Shown here: one piece after another, positions 14,830-46,808 of the stretch
How the letters are laid out: each line of letters begins with the position of its first letter
Position numbering within the stretch: position 1 is the stretch's first letter
Assembly: GCA_030680175.1 (NCBI GenBank)
Contig: JAUXWO010000119.1
Span: 1-47,297, forward strand
Length of the DNA: 47,297 bases
Direction of reading: 5' to 3'
Source: Vicinamibacterales bacterium
GTDB taxonomy: Bacteria > Acidobacteriota > Vicinamibacteria > Vicinamibacterales > UBA2999
Position numbers and translations under genes: made by a program
The notes under the pieces: generated by a model
The model's database searches: none
What the model saw: only the letters and a program-made list of their open reading frames with translations
What the model was told of the DNA's origin: nothing

Positions 14830-15396
14830 GTGGCGCTGACCGACCTGCTTCCGCGTGCCCTGCTGCTGCTGGGGCTCGGCTTCCTCGTGGCGAACGTGCG
14901 CGTGGCCGTGGACCTGGTCCGGTGGGCACGCCGCCGTTCCGAGGCCGTGCTGGTCTGGCGCGGGCGCACGCCGCCGTTCTACGGCCTGTCGCTCGGCATC
15001 GGCGTCCTGCTCGGCGTGCTGATCCTGTTCAAGCTGTTCGTGCAGCTGCAGCCGCCGTCCCGGTTCTTCGGCGAGCTGATGATGTTCGTCTACTACGGCT
15101 ATGCGCTGCCGCTCAGCACCCGCATCCGGCGCGGGCTGTACGCCGACGGGATCTGGGTGGACCGCGGCTTCATGCCGTACACCCACATCGGGGGCCTCAG
15201 CTGGCGCGAGGGCGCGCCCGACACGACGCTGGTGGTGATCGCGCGGGACAAGGGCACCGCACGGCGGCTCGACGTGCCGGGCCCGCTGCTCGGCGAGGTG
15301 CGCCGGCACCTCCGTGAGAAGGTCACCGCGCACGACATCGACTTCGTCGGCGCCGCGCTGGATCTGGGAGGGCATGATGCACGGGAAGATATCTGA
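14830..15396 (+). CDS. Hypothetical membrane protein with a PH-like tail
   Basis: This 188-residue protein starts at a GTG 24 bp after tdk. Hydrophobic segments lie at about residues 7-25, 53-73 and 84-95. A soluble C-terminal half from about residue 98 contains GLYADGIWVDRGFMPYTHIG and a later VVIARDKGTARRLDVPG. This alternation of short strands and one terminal helix resembles PH-like domains of the DUF5673 type, but I cannot confirm the family. It may be co-transcribed with tdk. Function is unknown. Confidence 0.7.
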   Translation: MALTDLLPRALLLLGLGFLVANVRVAVDLVRWARRRSEAVLVWRGRTPPFYGLSLGIGVLLGVLILFKLFVQLQPPSRFFGELMMFVYYGYALPLSTRIRRGLYADGIWVDRGFMPYTHIGGLSWREGAPDTTLVVIARDKGTARRLDVPGPLLGEVRRHLREKVTAHDIDFVGAALDLGGHDAREDI

Positions 15397-15640
15397 CGAT
15401 CTCTTGATGTGGTGATGTGGTGAACTGATGTGGAGATGTCCAGATCTTCGATGTATCTCGTGATCTGGTGACCTGGTGATCTGGTGATCTGGTGATCTGG
15501 TGATCTGGTGATCTGGTGATCTGGTGATCTGGTGATCTGGCGATCTGGCGATCTGGTGACCTGTCTGCGGGTGGCCGCCACCGGTCACCGCGCCGATAGC
15601 CGCCAGCTGAAAGCCGATCGCTGATCGCTGACCGCCTACA
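15397..15640. repeat. Composite repeat: 9-mer GATCTGGTG tract plus AGCCGAT-type tract (A1+B1)
   Basis: From about 15397 to 15560 the sequence is built on 9-bp units GATCTGGTG. At least eight near-identical units run from about 15460, preceded by degenerate copies and an internal core at 15440-15468 that carries CCAGATC and GTATCTCGTG. After a short linker, 15590-15640 contains AGCCGAT/CGCTGAT units. It fills the gap before ku. Confidence 0.9.
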
Positions 15641-15681: not shown

Positions 15682-16575
15682 ATGGCCATTCGTCCCACTT
15701 GGAAGGGCTACCTGAAGGTCAGCCTCGTCACGATCCCGGTGCGGGTCTACCCGGCTACCGAGTCGAGCGCCACCATCTCGTTCAATCAGCTGCACGCCGA
15801 GTGCCAGACGCGGATCCAGCAGAAGAAGTGGTGCCCCTCCTGCGAACGTGAGATCACCTCCGCCGAGGTGGTCAAGGGCTACGAGTTCGAGAAGGGCCGC
15901 TGGGTGGTCATCGCCGACGAGGATGTCGCGAAGGTGCGCGCCGAGTCGACGAAGGTGATCAACCTCGTCCAGTTCGCCGGCGCCGGCGCCATCGACCCGA
16001 TGTACGTCGACAAGACGTACTACCTGGCCCCCGAGGGGCCCATGGCCAACGACGCCTACGCCGTGATGCGCGACGGCATGCGCGACCACACGGGCATCGG
16101 CAAGATGGCCATCCACGGCCGCGAGTACCTGGTGGCCATCCGCCCGCACAAGCAGGGGCTGGTGATGCACACGCTGCATCATGCCGCCGAGATCCGGACC
16201 ATCGACCAGATCGACGAGCTACGCGAAGTGCGCGGGCAGGTCGCGCCCGCTGAGGCGAAGCTGGCCTCGCAGGTCATCCAGAGCCTCGAGGGCCCGCTCG
16301 ACCTCCGGGACTACCAGGACGAGTACCAGCAGGGGCTACGGCAGATCATCGAGGCGAAGATTGCCGGCGAGGAGATCGCCATGCCGGAGGAGTCCACGCC
16401 GCCGAAGGTCGTGGATCTGATGGAGGCGCTCCGGCGCAGCCTCGACTCGGTCAGTCAGGGCAAGAAGAAGACCGCGAAGGTGGACGAGCCGGCGGCCGCC
16501 AAGGCCAAGAAAGTCGCCGAGGGTCCGAAAGCGGTGGCGGCCCGGGGCACGGCGAAGAAGCGAAAGGCTTCTTGA
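15682..16575 (+). CDS. ku: Ku protein for non-homologous end joining
   Basis: This 297-residue homodimeric DNA-end-binding protein starts with the bacterial Ku signature (IRPTWKGYLKVSLVTIPVRV) and has a Cys-x2-Cys element (WCPSCERE, about residue 52). The core beta-barrel region includes GREYLVAIRPHKQGLVMHTL. A Lys/Ala-rich tail from about residue 258 is typical of bacterial Ku proteins and may help DNA threading or ligase recruitment. GAGGAG lies 6 bp before the ATG. The partner ligase LigD is not in this window. Confidence 0.97.
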   Translation: MAIRPTWKGYLKVSLVTIPVRVYPATESSATISFNQLHAECQTRIQQKKWCPSCEREITSAEVVKGYEFEKGRWVVIADEDVAKVRAESTKVINLVQFAGAGAIDPMYVDKTYYLAPEGPMANDAYAVMRDGMRDHTGIGKMAIHGREYLVAIRPHKQGLVMHTLHHAAEIRTIDQIDELREVRGQVAPAEAKLASQVIQSLEGPLDLRDYQDEYQQGLRQIIEAKIAGEEIAMPEESTPPKVVDLMEALRRSLDSVSQGKKKTAKVDEPAAAKAKKVAEGPKAVAARGTAKKRKAS

Positions 16576-16679
16576 TTGCAGATTGCAGATTGCAGATTGA
16601 AGGGCCGAAAGCCGAAAGCCGACAGCCGACAGCCGACAGCCGACAGCTGGCAGCCGAAAGCCGATAGCCGATAGCCCTG
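16576..16679. repeat. Composite heptad repeat: ATTGCAG tract plus AGCCGAC/AGCCGAA tract
   Basis: Just after the ku stop, four copies of a 7-bp ATTGCAG unit are followed by about a dozen 7-bp AGCCGAA/AGCCGAC/AGCCGAT units. The second half matches the B tracts at 15590, 27400 and, inverted, 42612. It fills the space between the convergent ku and phosphatidyltransferase genes. Confidence 0.9.
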
Positions 16680-25905: not shown

Positions 25906-26332
25906 CGGCGCCCCGCTGTTGCTCGATACCCACGTCTGGATCTGGATGGTGAACGGCACGTCCGATCGGATCGGCCGTGCCGCGCGCGCGCGCCTCGAGA
26001 AGGCGTCGACGCACTACGCCCTGCGCGTGTCGGTCCTGTCGACGTGGGAGGTGGCGATGCTGGAAGCGCGCGGCCGTCTCACGCTGGCACTCGATTGTCG
26101 TGACTGGGTCGCGCGCGGGCTCGGTGCGCCCGGCGTCGTGCTCGAGGAACTCACGCCGGAGATCGCGGTCGAGAGCACGCGCCTGCCCGAGGCCGACGCC
26201 CTGCGCGATCCCGTTGACCGGATGCTCGTCGCGACCGCGCGCCAGCGGGAACTGACGCTCGTCACCGCCGACGCGGCGGTCCTGGCTTACGCGAAGGGCG
26301 GACGCCTGCGCGTACTGGACGCGCGGCGGTAG
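25898..26332 (+). CDS. PIN-domain toxin (VapC-like ribonuclease)
   Basis: This 144-residue PIN-domain protein is expected to cleave RNA when freed from its antitoxin. The acidic metal-binding set is complete: Asp10 (LLLDTHVW), Glu51 (STWEVAML), Asp104/Asp107 (LRDPVDRMLVA) and Asp125 (TADAAVLAY). The start is GTG 25898 inside the antitoxin gene. Its last 71 bp, including the codon for Asp125, overlap antisense with the 3' end of rluB, an unusual convergent overlap. Confidence 0.9.
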   Translation: MSDGAPLLLDTHVWIWMVNGTSDRIGRAARARLEKASTHYALRVSVLSTWEVAMLEARGRLTLALDCRDWVARGLGAPGVVLEELTPEIAVESTRLPEADALRDPVDRMLVATARQRELTLVTADAAVLAYAKGGRLRVLDARR

Positions 26333-27230
26333 GGCGTGAGCCGCTCGGTCGCGTGTTACCCCCACGCGAAGGCGACTTCCCGGCACTCGCCGGCCGCGGC
26401 GCGGCGCCGCGCGCGGGGGCCGGACGCGGGCCGCTCTTCGCGGGCCGTGACGGCGCCGCCTTCTTCGCCGTGCCTCCACCGGTCGTCGCACGCTGGAGCG
26501 CGGCGACTTCGGCGGGCGTGAGGTCCCGCCACGCCCCCACCGGCAGATCCCCGAGCGTGAGCGGGCCCATCTTGATGCGGCGCAGCTTCTGCACCGGGTG
26601 GCCCACGGCGGCGCACATGTTGCGGACCTGCCGGTTGCGTCCCTCGTGCAGCGTGATGAGCAGCCGGCTCGTCTCGCGCCCCTTGTTGGTCACGGTTCCA
26701 TCGAACACGACATACGCCGGCGCCGTCCGCAGGCCCTCGAGCACGACGCCCTTCCGGAGCTTCTCGACCGCGCGCGCATCCGGCGCGCCCTTGACGATCG
26801 CTTCGTAGATGCGCGGCACCTCGTGCCGGGGGTGGGTGAGGGCGAGCGCCAGGTCGCCGTCACTCGTGAGCAGCAGCAGGCCTTCGGTGTCGTAGTCCAG
26901 CCGGCCCACGGGGTACACGTAATCGCGCACCTTCGTGAGCAGGTCGAGGATCGTCCGCCGCCCCTGCGGGTCCTTCAGCGTCGTCACGTACCCGACGGGC
27001 TTGTTGAGGAGGATGTACCGCGCCTGGGCCTTGAGCTTCACGCGCCGGTCGTCGACCCGGATGTCGTCGCGCTCCGGATCCGCCTTGACCCCGAGCGTCC
27101 GGACCACCTCGCCGTTGACCATGATGCGGCCTTCGAGGATCAGGAGCTCCGCCGTGCGGCGCGACGCGATCCCCGCCGACGACAGCAGCTTCTGGAGGCG
27201 GACGGGCTTGGGGGGGAGATCGAAGGACAC
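26262..27230 (-). CDS. rluB: 23S rRNA/ribosomal large subunit pseudouridine synthase (RluB/RsuA family)
   Basis: This 322-residue protein has an N-terminal S4 RNA-binding domain (VRLQKLLSSAGIASRRTAELLI), then the pseudouridine synthase fold with catalytic Asp in GRLDYDTEGLLLLT near residue 115. The RsuA-type NRQVRNMCAAVGHPVQKL segment follows. After about residue 250 there is a long disordered tail rich in Ala, Pro, Arg and Lys; its last 23 codons lie antisense to the toxin gene. It modifies a uridine in the large-subunit rRNA. The gene order scpA-scpB-rluB is common, though here rluB is inverted. Confidence 0.92.
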   Translation of the reverse strand: MSFDLPPKPVRLQKLLSSAGIASRRTAELLILEGRIMVNGEVVRTLGVKADPERDDIRVDDRRVKLKAQARYILLNKPVGYVTTLKDPQGRRTILDLLTKVRDYVYPVGRLDYDTEGLLLLTSDGDLALALTHPRHEVPRIYEAIVKGAPDARAVEKLRKGVVLEGLRTAPAYVVFDGTVTNKGRETSRLLITLHEGRNRQVRNMCAAVGHPVQKLRRIKMGPLTLGDLPVGAWRDLTPAEVAALQRATTGGGTAKKAAPSRPAKSGPRPAPARGAAPRPASAGKSPSRGGNTRPSGSRPTAARPVRAGVRPSRKPGPPRRR

Positions 27231-27235
27231 TCAGA

Positions 27236-27510
27236 GATGATAAGCGAATCTGGTGATCTCGTGAGGTGGTGATCTGGCGATCTGATGCCCAGATGCGTCG
27301 ATCCGCGATCTATCTCCTGATCTGGGGATCTGTTGATCTGGGGATCTATTGATCTGGAGATCTGGGGATCTGTGGGCCGCTCCGCACTCCTGGCCGGCAG
27401 CGGACAGCGAGACAGCGGAAAGCCGAGAGCTGATCGCTGATAGCTGATCGCTGATCGCTGAGAGCCGATAGCCGATAGCTGCTAGCTGAAAGCCGACAGT
27501 CTGGCGCCTG
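27236..27510. repeat. Composite repeat: 9-mer GATCTGGNG tract plus AGCCGAT/GCTGATC tract (A2+B2)
   Basis: From 27245 to 27372 the sequence is degenerate 9-bp GATCTGGGG/GATCTGGTG units around an internal core (27289-27325, with CCAGATGC and CGCGATCTATCTCCTG). From 27400 to 27505, units such as CTGATCG and AGCCGATAGC follow. It sits between the start of rluB and the end of the alpha/beta hydrolase gene, both on the minus strand. No gene is seen in it. Confidence 0.9.
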
Positions 27511-28762: not shown

Positions 28763-29434
28763 GTGAAACGGCTCATCATCGCGATCGATGGCCCCTCCGG
28801 CGCGGGCAAGGGCACACTGGCGCACGCCGTCGCGCGCCGCCTCGAGTACCGGCACGTCGATACGGGGGCGATGTACCGCGCGGTCGCCTGGAAAGCGCTG
28901 CAGGACGGCGTGGGGCTCGACGACGAGCCGGCGGTGGCGGCCCTCGCCTCGGCGGCGGCGTTCGCGCAGGAGGACGGCGTCATCCGCATCGACGGCCACG
29001 ACGTGACGCGGGCCATCCGCACGCCCGACATGGACAAGGCGGCCGCCCGCGTGGCGAAGCTGCCCGGGGTCCGCGCGATCCTCGTCGAGCGCCAGCGCGC
29101 GCTGGCGCAGGACGGCGGCGTCGTGATGGAAGGGCGCGACATCGGCACGGTGGTGTTTCCCGCCGCCGACGTGAAGGTCTACCTCGATGCGTCGCCCGAC
29201 GAACGGGCCCGCCGGCGGGCCGGGGATACCGCCCACAGCGGCGGGCAACAGGGCACGGTCGCCGTCGTCGCCACCGACCTGATCGAGCGCGACCGCACGG
29301 ACTCGACCCGCGCCGTCGCCCCGCTCACCATGGCGCCCGACGCCGTCTACGTCGACACCACCGGCATCCCGATCGACGACGTCGTCGAGCGGGTGATGGC
29401 GTTGGTGAAAGAGAGGGTAGTGGGGAGTAGGTAG
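28763..29434 (+). CDS. cmk: Cytidylate kinase
   Basis: This 223-residue kinase phosphorylates CMP/dCMP. It has the P-loop GPSGAGKGT (residues 10-18), the substrate segment HVDTGAMYRAVAW, and the conserved GRDIGTVVFPAADVKVYLDA near residue 127, in pieces. The GTG start aligns with the usual family N-terminus (V-K-R-L-I-I-A-I-D-G-P); an upstream ATG 28745 lies before the -10 box. cmk normally neighbours rpsA, and here a minus-strand H1-like gene lies between them. The 3' end merges with the heptad inverted repeat. Confidence 0.95.
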   Translation: MKRLIIAIDGPSGAGKGTLAHAVARRLEYRHVDTGAMYRAVAWKALQDGVGLDDEPAVAALASAAAFAQEDGVIRIDGHDVTRAIRTPDMDKAAARVAKLPGVRAILVERQRALAQDGGVVMEGRDIGTVVFPAADVKVYLDASPDERARRRAGDTAHSGGQQGTVAVVATDLIERDRTDSTRAVAPLTMAPDAVYVDTTGIPIDDVVERVMALVKERVVGSR

Positions 29435-29567
29435 TGGGGAGTAGGTAGTGGGTGGTGGGTAGTGGGTAGTGGGTGGTGGGTAGTGGTGCACCGCTGCACT
29501 CCTACTACCCACTACCCACTACCTACTACCTACTACCCACTACCCACGACCCACGACCCACGACCCC
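29417..29567. repeat. Long imperfect inverted repeat of GTAGTGGG/CCCACTAC heptads (C2)
   Basis: The left arm (29417-29486) is built of GTAGTGG-type heptads, and the right arm (about 29500-29567) of the complementary CCCACTA/CCCACGA heptads. The centre GTGCA-CCGC-TGCAC (29486-29499) is itself a perfect small hairpin. The transcript from either side could fold into a very long stem. It covers the end of cmk and the gap before the convergent H1-like gene, so it may act as a bidirectional transcript end. The heptads match tract C1 at 834-940. Confidence 0.9.
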
Positions 29568-34147: not shown

Positions 34148-34226
34148 GGGATCAGGGATCGGGGATCAGGGAACAGGGAACAGGGAGGCATCTTCCGGTC
34201 CCCGATCCCTGGCCCCCGCCTCCCGC
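34148..34226. repeat. GGGATCA/GGGAACA heptad tract with inverted repeat (tract E)
   Basis: Five heptads of GGGATCA or GGGAACA type run from about 34148 to 34186. AGGGATCGGGGA (34154-34165) pairs perfectly with TCCCCGATCCCT (34199-34210). It separates two convergent genes and may serve as their shared transcript end. Confidence 0.8.
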
Positions 34227-42611: not shown

Positions 42612-42870
42612 AGGGCTGTTGGCTTTCGGCTCTCAGCTCTCAGCTCTCAGCTTTCGGCTTTCGGCTCTCGGCATCGGCCCACGGCTCTGCGGCCCGGCAC
42701 CCTGGCCACCCCGGGCACCCGGGCACCCTGGGCACCCCGGGCACCTTGGGCACCCCGGGCACCTTGGGCACCCCGGGCACCTTGGGCACCCCGGGCACCT
42801 TGGGCACCCCGGGCACCTTGGGCACCCCGGGCACCCTGGGCACCCGGGCACCCTGGGCACCCTGGGCACC
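42612..42870. repeat. Composite repeat: inverted B tract plus GGGCACCTT/GGGCACCCC 9-mer tract (D1)
   Basis: From 42612 to about 42685 the sequence reads CTCTCAG/CTTTCGG heptads, the reverse complement of the AGCCGAA-type B tract. From 42694 to 42870, 9-bp units alternate GGGCACCTT and GGGCACCCC, giving a near-perfect 18-bp period. It fills the gap between the convergent VWFA and gdhA genes. Confidence 0.92.
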
Positions 42871-44127: not shown

Positions 44128-44511
44128 GAGCGAACCCAGTCCTTGGGCCTCGCCGGGCCTCCGCGGGGGCGGGCCGGCCGGGGCCGTTGTCAGCTGAACT
44201 GCAAACGCCCTGCCGACCTCACGGCGCGAGCGCAAACGTCCTAAGGTAGCGCTGCCACTGCTCGGATGTCAATTGAGTATCGTATCCATGCGGCATGGGC
44301 ATGCTCTCTCGGGGGTGCCGAGGTGCCGGGGTGCCGGGGTGCTTCGGCTGTCGGCGATCGGCTCTCGGCGTCGGCCCACTGCACCGCAGGCACCCCGGCA
44401 CTTCGGCACCTCGGCACCCGCAGCGCGCCTTCTGCGCATGCGACGCGCGCATGGTGTCGATGCGGCCTCCGGGGCGGCGTCGGCGATCCTGGCCTGTATA
44501 ATGAGCGGGTT
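44128..44511. repeat. Divergent gap with a 30-bp inverted repeat (D2)
   Basis: GGGTGCCGAGGTGCC... at 44313-44342 is the reverse complement of 44391-44420, with two mismatches in 30 bp. Each arm is made of 8-bp GGTGCCGG units. The roughly 48-bp loop contains B-type TCGGC units. The icmA -10 lies near the end of the gap. No gene is seen. Confidence 0.85.
44497..44511 (+). promoter_or_regulatory. -10 element for near-leaderless icmA transcript
   Basis: A consensus TATAAT (44497-44502) lies 9 bp before ATG 44512, so the transcript would start within about three bases of the start codon. There is no ribosome-binding site. Confidence 0.65.
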
Positions 44512-46185
44512 ATGAAGAGCGTGCTGAACGGGACCGAGACCGGCAAGCAGCGGTGGGAGCGCGAGGTGCTCGAGCCCGCGTTGAAGAAGGCGCCCGAGCG
44601 GACCGGCCCCTTCACCACCATTTCCGCGCGACCCATCGACCGGCTCTACACCCCCGACGATGTGGCCGGGCTGGAGTACGCGAAGGATCAGGGCAACCCC
44701 GGCGAGTTCCCCTACGTCCGCGGCATCCACCCGAGCGGCTACCGCGGCAAGCTCTGGACGATGCGGCAGTTTGCCGGCTACGGGACGCCGGAGGAAACGA
44801 ACCAGCGCTACAAGGACCTGATTGCCGCCGGCGGCACGGGGCTGAGCGTCGCGTTCGACCTGCCGACGCTGATGGGCCGCGATCCCGACCACGAGCTCTC
44901 GCTCGGCGAGGTGGGGAAGTGCGGCGTCAGCATCGTGTCGCTCGCCGACATGGAGCGCCTGTTCGACGGGATCTCGCTCGCCGACATCACGACGTCGATG
45001 ACGATCAACTCGCCGGCGCCGATGATCTTCGCGATGTACCTGGTGGTGGCCGAGAAGCAGGGCGCCGACTGGTCGACGATCTCCGGGACGATCCAGAACG
45101 ACATCCTGAAGGAGTTCATCGCCCAGAAGGAGTACATCTTCCCGCCGCGGCCGTCGATGCGGCTCATCACCGACATCTTCTCGTTCTGCGCCGAGCGCGT
45201 GCCGAAGTGGAACACGATCTCGGTCAGCGGGTACCACATCCGCGAGGCGGGCTCGACGTCGCTCCAGGAGCTGGCGTTCACGCTGCGCGACGGCCTCGAG
45301 TACGTGCAGTACGGCGTCGATGCGGGGCTCGCGGTCGATGACTTCGTTCCGCGCATCTCCTTCTTCTTCAACTCGCACAGCGACTTCTTCGAGGAGATTG
45401 CGAAGTTCCGCGCCGCGCGGAAGCTGTGGGCCGAGGCGATGGTCGAGCGGTTCGGCGCGAAGAACCCGCGCAGCTGGCAGCTCCGCTTTCACACGCAGAC
45501 GGCCGGCGTCTCGCTGACCGCGCAGCAGCCCTACAACAACGTGGTCCGCACGGCCCTGCAGGCGCTCGCCGCGGTCCTCGGCGGCACCAACTCCCTCCAC
45601 ACCAACTCGCTCGACGAGGCGCTGGCGCTGCCGACGAAGGAGACCGCGACCCTCGCGCTCCGCACGCAGCAGATCATCGCCCACGAGAGCGGCGTCATCA
45701 ACACGGTGGACCCGCTCGGTGGCTCCTACTTCGTCGAGGCGCTGACGCGCGAGATGGAGGAGGGCACGAAGAAGTACTGGGAGACGATCGACGGCATGGG
45801 CGGCATGGTCGAGGCGATCGAGCTCGGCTATCCGCAGAAGGAGATCGCCGAGTCCTCGTACCAGTTCCAGCGGGCGGTCGAGAGCCGCGAGAAGACGATC
45901 GTCGGCGTGAACGAGTACGTGCAGAAGGACGACCCGCCGCTGCAGATCCTGTACATCGACGACACGGCCGCCGAGACCCAGCTGTCCCGGCTCGCCGACC
46001 TGAAGCGGACCCGCGACAACGACCGCGTCGCGCGGTCGCTCGACGCGCTGCGCACCGCCGCGCGCGGCAAGGACAACACGATGGTCCCGCTGCTCGAGTG
46101 CGTGCGCGCCTATGCCACCGTCGGCGAGATGTGCGACGCGCTGCGCGACGTCTGGGGCGAGTGGGAGGAGACGCCGATCATCTAG
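44512..46185 (+). CDS. icmA: B12-dependent acyl-CoA mutase large subunit, isobutyryl-CoA mutase type
   Basis: This 557-residue TIM-barrel catalytic subunit belongs to the methylmalonyl-CoA mutase family and works with a separate B12-binding subunit. Residues that select substrate are diagnostic: methylmalonyl-CoA mutase has Tyr89 and Arg207, isobutyryl-CoA mutase Phe80 and Gln198, 118 residues apart in each. Here Phe87 (TMRQFAGYG) and Gln205 ([10 protein letters not shown]) are 118 apart, the isobutyryl type. The reaction would interconvert isobutyryl-CoA and butyryl-CoA. The family segments [11 protein letters not shown] and [12 protein letters not shown] are intact. Homology-based labels would probably read methylmalonyl-CoA mutase. 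Confidence 0.85.
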
Positions 46186-46400
46186 ATCTGGTGATGTCGC
46201 GACGTGGTGATCTGGTGATCTGAAGTCCGAAGTGGCGATCTCGCGATGTAGCTTCTGATCTGGTGATCTGGCGAGCTGTGATGTGGCGATCTGGTGATGT
46301 GGCGATCTGGGCGAAGAGCGAATAGCGAACAGCGAATAGCGAATCACGAACAGCGAATAGCGAACAGCGAAGAGCGAACAGCGAACAGCGAATAGCGAAC
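46186..46400. repeat. Composite repeat: GATCTGGTG tract plus AGCGAAC/AGCGAAT tract (A3+B3)
   Basis: Degenerate GATCTGGTG and GATGTGGCG 9-mers run from 46190 to 46310, around a core (46226-46263) with CGCGATGTAGCTTCTGATCTGG-like content. From 46311 to 46400 about a dozen AGCGAAC/AGCGAAT heptads follow, right up to the icmB start. It separates the two mutase subunit genes. Confidence 0.9.
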
Positions 46401-46808
46401 ATGGAACAGAAGATCCGAGTCGTGATTGCCAAGCCCGGGCTCGATGGGCACGATCGGGGCGCCAAGGTGATCGCGCGGGCGCTGCGTGATGCCGGCATGG
46501 AGGTCATCTACACCGGCCTCCGCCAGACCCCTGAGCAGATCGTCGGCGCCGCCCTCCAGGAAGACGCCGACGTGATCGGCCTGTCGATCCTCTCCGGCGC
46601 CCACATGCACATCTGTCCGCGCGTGGCCGACCTGCTCAAGGAGAAGGGCCTCGACGACGTGATGGTGGTCATCGGGGGCATCATCCCCGATCTCGATGTC
46701 CCGAAGCTCAACGCGATGGGCATCCACGGCATCTTCATCCCCGGCACGCCCATGCAGCAGATTGTGGACTACATCCGCGGTCACGTCCGGACCAGGGCGG
46801 CGGGATGA
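46401..46808 (+). CDS. icmB: B12-binding small subunit of the acyl-CoA mutase
   Basis: This 135-residue Rossmann-fold domain has the cobalamin motif Asp-x-His-x-x-Gly in [10 protein letters not shown] near residue 16, then [11 protein letters not shown] and VVIGGIIPD, which complete the base-off/His-on B12 site. The size equals the stand-alone IcmB of Streptomyces. It must pair with the large subunit upstream, from which it is separated by a repeat tract. The last codons overlap the next gene's start. Confidence 0.93.

Follow-up and report, generated by a model that had tools for sequence, protein, structure and literature searches.

Dispersed tandem-array elements in the intergenic spacers of a Vicinamibacterales genome and their possible relation to S23/IVP genes framed by inverted arrays

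The window, a stretch of 47,297 nt (contig C46, positions 1-47297, of a 4.98-Mb Vicinamibacterales genome in 143 contigs), carries at three sites copies of one dispersed repeat family, termed family A, whose paired ends face inward. Most genes for S23/IVP proteins (PF05635) that we read, in this genome and in others, lie between inverted tandem arrays. This pattern, S23/IVP genes framed by inverted arrays whose units also match dispersed arrays, is what most deserves further work. We lean towards reading family A as a miniature IVS/REPIN-like mobile element, dispersed, non-coding and inverted-ended, that is related to IVP-bearing elements.

Family A consists of a conserved head of about 85 nt and a tail of 8-nt units. 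The layout of the three window sites, where heptads (family B) follow the tail, and of two further inverted pairs was as follows.

15389..15475, + strand: A head, copy 1 (model match 73.8 bits, this copy being part of the model; held-out score 62.2 bits)
15476..15563, + strand: A tail, copy 1, 8-nt units GATCTGGT (TRF period 8, 13.6 copies over 15455-15563)
15597..15635, + strand: short B heptads of AGCCGAT/GATCGCT type, copy 1 (sequence; TRF 15616-15635, period 7)
15682..16575, + strand: ku gene, given as context, 3' of copy 1 (gene prediction; relatives in 15 of 19 genomes)
27246..27333, + strand: A head, copy 2 (model match 80.1 bits; held-out score 72.1 bits)
27334..27372, + strand: A tail, copy 2, 8-nt units (TRF 27319-27372)
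27398..27497, + strand: B heptads (AGCCGAT/AGCTGAT), copy 2 (TRF within 27398-27496; motif arrays 27414-27448 and 27463-27497)
29415..29566, strand order + then -: array family C, inverted pair (GGGTAGT)n..(ACTACCC)n (TRF)
44312..44418, no single strand: inverted array pair GGGGTGCC..GGCACCTC, resembling the arms of family D (TRF; G-rich then C-rich)
46184..46270 (approximate), + strand: A head, copy 3 (model match 79.7 bits; held-out score 71.9 bits)
46256..46310, + strand: A tail, copy 3, 8-nt units, overlapping the end of the head (TRF)
46311..46400, + strand: B-like heptads (AGCGAAC), copy 3, up to the ATG at 46401 (TRF 46311-46409; sequence)

The head of copy 1 starts within the last codons or stop of the upstream gene, that of copy 2 adjoins the start of a minus-strand gene (26262-27230, gene prediction), and that of copy 3 begins at the stop codon of the preceding gene. 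All three A copies have one end only, and the heptad part is short at copy 1 and long at copies 2 and 3. An earlier note on this DNA had placed the first core at 15440-15468 among 9-mer repeats; a related core does recur at the other two sites, but the heads extend over 15389-15475, 27246-27333 and approximately 46184-46270, and the repeat unit is 8 nt long (ATCTGGTG/GATCTGGT, TRF). The family C pair has an A-like architecture built from another unit. Further 7-/9-nt arrays were detected by TRF at 834-940, 16574-16676, 34148-34186 and 42621-42870 (units CCCACGA, GATTGCA/GCCGACA, GGGATCA, GGCTCTC and GGCACCCTG), and are probably additional array families of a similar sort.

For the core said to be shared by the three sites, alignment against shuffled sequences had been named beforehand as the refutation test. 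All three pairs of cores scored above 500 of 500 block shuffles, the tightest margin being that of copies 1 and 2 (score 43 versus a shuffle maximum of 41). In addition, a held-out test was performed with a profile from 36 other copies and 300 shuffles of 8-nt blocks per core. Window cores 1, 2 and 3 scored 62.2, 72.1 and 71.9 bits, compared with means of 22.4, 22.2 and 23.5 bits for their shuffled versions (sd 6.0-6.7; maxima 43.7, 39.8 and 48.7), with a bias towards element 2 because the profile copies had been gathered with octad patterns and the element-2 core. The shared core is thus present in all three window elements, which belong to one dispersed family. When BLAST was run with element 2 alone, element 3 was found (E 4e-13) and element 1 was not among the matches listed, so element 1 needs a profile for detection.

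Genome-wide, a sequence-only model (R1) gave 162 matches at E<=0.01; the count of three copies given in the earlier note holds within the window only. Its proposal of one ancestral core rather than three slippage events is borne out by these matches and by cores that beat block shuffles, and single ancestry is also backed by another genus, in which the initial 25 nt of the head recur with their octads in order (genome G001, locus L290). From this recurrence, the head start looks inherited rather than re-invented.

The follow-up of family A covered 147 matches of at least 30 bits, among 150 listed of the 162, and copies were read in 78 stretches around matches with genes predicted by a rough codon-usage script. 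The head consensus was ATCTGGTGATCTCGTGATGTGGTGATgTGGTGATCtGATGTgcGATGT..GATCT...GATCTATCTnnTGATCTG (alignment A1, 39 copies), and mean identity was 71% (maximum 94%; 122 copies). In the stretches read, whose coding share was 85.5%, the midpoints of 2 of 138 copies of at least 38 bits fell within predicted genes. The A copies read sit between predicted protein genes, unlike the 23S rRNA IVS. Heads started a median of 7 nt past a gene stop (85 heads) or 17.5 nt from a gene start (44 heads), abutting gene ends and starts so that the element fills its spacer. After merging, the 138 matches formed 133 units in 103 clusters (gap <400 bp), three of which, at stretch edges, were left out of the context table. 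The clusters comprised 73 with a single head (37 '+' and 36 '-') and 30 with two inward-facing heads ('+-'), and none was '-+' (30:0, two-sided binomial p 2e-9). Heads in pairs were more alike than single heads (82.6%, n=55, versus 79.2%, n=68; permutation p 0.009) in stricter rows, used since some single rows were tail fragments; looser rows gave the same direction. No target-site duplication was found in the 30 pairs, with no excess over permuted flanks (p 0.86 and 0.60), single-end copies gave little sign of a lost second end (2 of 58 versus 0 of 58 shuffled), and the consensus of 39 heads contained neither a GTAG nor a CGTC tag.

Several features of the heads were recorded separately. Runs of GATAGATA/TAGATAGA occurred within 40 nt upstream of 35 of 114 A heads (e.g. 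L124, L080, L120, L081), and ATCTATCT was upstream of 0 of 114; the second block of the head is GATCTATCT. In one head subtype (e.g. L015:726-815, L037:1635-1724, L054:178-267 and L091), the first block and ATCTATCT are separated by a GC-rich stretch that is often hairpin-like.

The suggestion that the element is structured failed for the head. RNAalifold predicted 0 pairs among 39 copies, by which a structured RNA was ruled out there; window copy 1 (15389-15563) folded no better than shuffles (z -1.1), and the window contained no Rfam match at gathering scores. The inverted pair at L103:5512-5800 folded as a stem (-180.7 kcal/mol, z -18); this was the only pair folded and a best case, its arms being 91% alike compared with 71% on average and among the most similar in the genome. 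An inverted terminal stem is therefore present in the folded pair and absent from the single-ended window copy folded. Across the 30 pairs, left and right arms paired well in any combination, with a slight advantage for true partners (mean arm duplex energy -111 kcal/mol for partners versus -103 kcal/mol for mismatched arms, p 1e-4), and the arm-to-arm match was real but small (within 40.3 versus between 36.9, p 0.001).

Model R1 was also run on 39 other genomes of the order. Matches were most numerous in G024 (77), which belongs to the window's own family, followed by G001 (41), G035 (29) and G034 (23); four further genomes had 1-3 and 31 had none, many of the listed matches being partial. 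The octads are common to Luteitalea sp. MAG records (L148, L155), and a head-like sequence is present in an 'Acidobacteria bacterium' MAG (L166). Orthologous spacers were sought in 19 relatives, with a match at the mcm small-subunit gene (mcm being our own reading of the sequence) in 17 and at ku in 15. At mcm, the genes overlap (ATGA) in G001 and G009, which are hence empty sites, and the spacer is short and plain in several other relatives; a short run of octads is present in G024, the inverted pair (AGTAGGC)n..(GCCTACT)n in G004, and other units in G014, G020, G021 and G022. Inverted arrays of other units occupy the ku spacer in G014 and G004. As orthologous mcm and ku spacers are empty or mostly hold other units, spacers seem to gain arrays independently, with units differing between genera.

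The A and B parts had been described as one composite element. When they occur together, order and strand are strict, with 15 of 15 B arrays (11 spacers) on the tail side and the same strand, but 89 of 100 A spacers are without B by the motif used. B arrays (AGCNGA..., at least 3 units, a motif that misses the AGCGAAC run of copy 3 and the short run of copy 1) were about equally frequent in A spacers (11 of 100) and in headless spacers of at least 60 nt (18 of 183). B heptads are an array family separate from A. Other arrays share spacers with A as well: octad heads stand opposite ACTACCC-type arrays in L112, L127 and L139, and a GGGTAGT array stands opposite an A head in L101. Among adjacent arrays with |skew| >0.15, the only ones counted, the order was G-rich then C-rich in 29 cases versus C-rich then G-rich in 3 (window genome's stretches). 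In spacers without A the counts were 17 (16 direct and 1 with a neutral array in between) versus 4 in reverse (window genome and relatives), and lone arrays followed this polarity weakly (28 versus 17).

Two side observations concern arrays elsewhere. The window genome has a 9-nt array family (AAGGACACG in 13, AAGGCCACG in 6 and AAGGTCACG in 3 arrays, e.g. near L039 and L045), and no IVP gene was found for this AAGGACACG type. Octad elements also lie within putative ribosomal protein operons (L061 in G021, L162, L307; gene names by sequence reading), including an inverted element between the genes for L11 and L1 and a short array that separates two ribosomal protein genes and extends to the next ATG.

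Genes between widely spaced heads were read at four loci (L074, L107, L121, L138), and only L138 holds an IVP gene, the Pfam scan covering the L138 protein only. This gene (contig C137, L138:2687-3067) lies between two inward-facing A heads. Its protein matched PF05635 marginally (34.3 bits, cut-off 33.8) and has a PDB relative in 2rld (E 2e-11); no other Pfam domain was found in it, and so no known catalytic domain. The window contig had no PF05635 match. By our own reading, G001 carries a like gene beside the counterpart of the C137 gene's neighbour (L293). In view of the bare PF05635 score and of this similar gene beside the shared neighbour, the C137 gene may be a resident gene bracketed by A heads by chance.

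Most PF05635 genes read had inverted tandem arrays on both sides with locus-specific units, such as (GGGATCC)n..(GGATCCC)n at L322 and GAGCAGG..CTCCCTG at L325; L314 was without arrays, and L321, L323 and L327 had longer units. Complementarity was scored between the 400 nt upstream and the 400 nt downstream of each gene. The flanks were complementary at a score of at least 40 for 18 of 22 IVP genes versus 4 of 381 control genes (80-220 aa, from stretches of the window genome and relatives; Fisher p 6e-24), the IVP flanks beginning at domain ends and the control flanks at gene ends, and 20 of 22 exceeded the 95th percentile of mismatched flank pairs. The 22 genes came from 47 PF05635 matches (all of G000, the window genome, G010, G015 and G020, 4 of 8 in G001, 1 of 12 in G024, 1 of 5 in G034 and 1 of 7 in G035); their selection preceded the test but followed the idea, which had come from L138, they had been read when they were scored, and this set itself suggested the idea. 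L293 was omitted as its upstream sequence was missing.

A second set was drawn as the 60 best-match loci (best 30 each) from 119 genomes of the phylum and 14 record-derived genomes, with L387 excluded for a short flank. Of the remaining 59 loci, 51 exceeded the 95th percentile of mismatched flanks and 8 fell below, with 33 scoring at least 40; without L345 and L355, which repeat first-set genes, the counts were 49 of 57 and 32 of 57. The upstream arm was G-rich in 34 of 38 second-set loci scoring at least 36. The link was weak in Bacteroidales-titled records, where 5 of 11 loci exceeded the 95th percentile and 1 scored at least 40.

In the window genome, 4 of 5 IVP genes have arms that recur as dispersed arrays, those of the genes on C64 (L308), C1 (L309), C102 (L311) and C137 (L138) belonging to families C, B, D and A, respectively; the arms of the fifth (L310) do not recur. 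Recurrence in the genome's stretches, in bins per 100 kb, was 21.7 for A (inflated, as the stretches were chosen for A), 5.1 for B, 4.5 for C and 2.4 for D, and in twelve other genomes sampled only D was hit (2.0 per 100 kb, G012). Across six genomes, the own genome was the maximum for 6 of 19 arms, and outside the window genome arms recur little. At L309, B lies on the '-' strand upstream and the '+' strand downstream of the IVP gene, so that the window order 'A+ then B+' corresponds to an A 5'-type end with a B 3'-type end behind it, which is the ordinary polarity of a pair. The number of PF05635 genes correlated with the density of 7/8-nt arrays (Spearman 0.69, p 0.01; 13 genomes, kinship ignored, densities from about 47-100 kb per genome). 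G005, G009 and G011 lacked PF05635 matches and had 0-1 arrays per 100 kb; poorer fits were G001 (8 IVP genes, 3.0 TRF arrays per 100 kb) and G020 (1 gene, 0 arrays in 100 kb). No description of IVP genes flanked by inverted tandem arrays at sites other than rRNA was found in the open-access journal literature searched.

A separate observation concerns a GGC[AG]-N8-GC motif upstream of IVP genes (e.g. L138, L313, L315, L322, L323, L369, L383), which resembles a sigma-54 -24/-12 site. As a feature of IVP genes it was rejected, since overall it was not enriched (20 of 80 IVP genes, against 294 of 1358 controls); by an uncontrolled count, 17 of the 20 motifs lay 28-43 nt before the IVP domain start.

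The architecture was compared with known systems. The Coxiella IVS is described as carrying an S23 gene that is preceded by tandem heptamers (GACAGAT), together with inverted terminal repeats, a strong stem and RNase III processing in vitro (PMC4990558). In the same paper the IVS is termed selfish, and the hypotheses cited include past mobility with the ORF as a component (PMC4990558). On that description, the 23S rRNA IVS and the IVP-bearing loci studied here are alike in having a PF05635 gene between inverted repeats and tandem units; here, however, the elements lie in intergenic spacers rather than in 23S rRNA, their ends are long 7-8-nt arrays, gene-less copies occur genome-wide and the window copies are single-ended. 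In CPR bacteria, 23S_rRNA_IVP genes are described at several 16S and 23S sites, with ORF-containing and ORF-less insertions coexisting; these insertions are mostly of homing-endonuclease type and within rRNA genes, and that text does not contain the term 'inverted' (PMC11270868). REPINs are short, intergenic inverted doublets with singlets as remnants and doublets more conserved, and their families are tied to particular genes (RAYT) (PMC3116915). Family A resembles them in its intergenic placement, in its inverted doublets (30 '+-' versus 0 '-+'), in its singlets and in its more conserved paired heads, but differs in that its ends are tandem arrays without a REP tag (the GTAG/CGTC tags of REP sequences are named in the title of PMC3733652) and its candidate linked gene is not a transposase.

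For the arrays themselves, there is a likeness to Beggiatoaceae, for which a study tabulates 170 sets of the intergenic heptamer TAACTGA with one inverted repeat and, as here, places 7-nt tandem units in spacers, ribosomal protein operons and gene ends; that text lacks the terms four helix, S23 and intervening (PMC4679880). S23/IVP ('four helix bundle') proteins are described as frequent orphans resembling the DGR accessory protein Avd (PMC10053308). The likeness to the Coxiella IVS and the REPIN-like doublets with their conservation are the reasons for reading family A as a miniature IVS-like element. Cyanobacterial STRR are intergenic heptamer repeats, that is, 7-nt tandem units in spacers. 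BOX/MITE-type bacterial repeats are modular, short and dispersed; family A differs from them in having no target-site duplication (30 pairs) and arrays as ends.

We propose the following mechanism. Family A has two like ends facing inward (head..tail..tail..head on opposite strands), with one end only in many copies, and would be the miniature form of a larger element in which a PF05635 gene, for which the C137 gene is the candidate, sits between inverted short-tandem arrays. This larger element would be of IVS type, living in intergenic spacers instead of rRNA, with arm units specific to each gene and recurring at other loci, much as REP sequences accompany their own transposase gene. Spread of the element may involve the IVP protein; no movement was seen, as no target-site duplication was found (30 pairs) and no same-genus genome was among those compared. 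In a transcript, the ends of a paired copy might form a long G.U-tolerant duplex that is cut by an RNase III-type enzyme, which would make copies in operon spacers tolerable. The tails would grow and shrink afterwards through slippage, and the 'A+B' composites of the window would each be an A 5'-type end and a B 3'-type end in one spacer. The readings weighed below and this one are not mutually exclusive, and the probabilities attached to them overlap.

The alternative that survives best, though we consider it unlikely, is that A, as a REPIN/MITE-like family, owes its movement to a conventional transposase (RAYT/Y1 or an unseen DDE enzyme) and has no relation to IVP genes. Inverted doublets and singlets, with doublets more conserved, would fit it, as would the three Y1_Tnp genes of the window genome. 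However, Y1_Tnp was present in all 10 genomes searched, whether or not they contain A; among the matches listed, the nearest A copies lay 4.9 kb (C1), 13.9 kb and 27.6 kb from these genes; and the lack of target-site duplication in 30 pairs and of a GTAG/CGTC tag in the head consensus also argues against it. Membership in a RAYT/REPIN system was ruled out on gene adjacency, the nearest listed A match being 4.9 kb from Y1_Tnp.

Serial extension of ends at DNA breaks, with repeats added to 3' ends that are then joined, would explain G-rich-inward ends, the absence of '-+' and the presence of different units in one spacer, and the array orders above (29 versus 3; without A, 17 versus 4) and the mixed A/C and A/B spacers agree with it. 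We nevertheless hold it improbable, since a conserved 85-nt head at more than 100 places needs a template and lone arrays follow the polarity weakly (28 versus 17). Templating by a reverse transcriptase was rejected, there being no RVT_1 match in the window genome, and so was a requirement for Ku-dependent end joining: Ku is dispensable, as G010 has 16 arrays per 100 kb but no Ku match.

A cis-regulatory or protein-binding array under selection (terminator, RNA stability or nucleoid site) appears slightly less probable again. It is favoured by the concentration of pairs in convergent spacers, which hold 17 of 29 pairs with both neighbours called versus 70 of 385 gene pairs overall, but in tandem spacers the two orientations of single heads are about equally common (24 versus 26), and the relatives' ku and mcm spacers are empty or hold mostly other sequences, with a short octad run at mcm in G024. 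Shine-Dalgarno mimicry (GGTGATC against the 16S tail) was discarded, as the units of other genera lack GGTGATC. Least probable of all is local slippage with gene conversion of spacer microsatellites and no mobile element, for although tails are variable and orthologous spacers hold other units, the ordered head beats block-shuffled controls in the held-out test, the polarity is 30:0 and IVP genes are framed by inverted arrays.

The reading of family A as a miniature, IVP-related mobile element can be extended, more tentatively, to a widespread class of bacterial selfish element whose sole gene would be S23/IVP and whose ends would be inverted 7-8-nt arrays, each gene with its own unit. Such elements would move or copy without a recognisable transposase, and gene-less copies would fill intergenic and operon spacers; the 23S rRNA IVS would then represent a small number of copies that had inserted into rRNA.

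Several of the genomes studied are rich in intergenic arrays of heptads and octads. Tying them to S23/IVP proteins gives both a testable role and would help explain spacer repeats across a bacterial order, and the old idea of IVS mobility becomes answerable by presence/absence data. Elements of this kind are known from rRNA genes; here they are apparently seeding the spacers of a genome.
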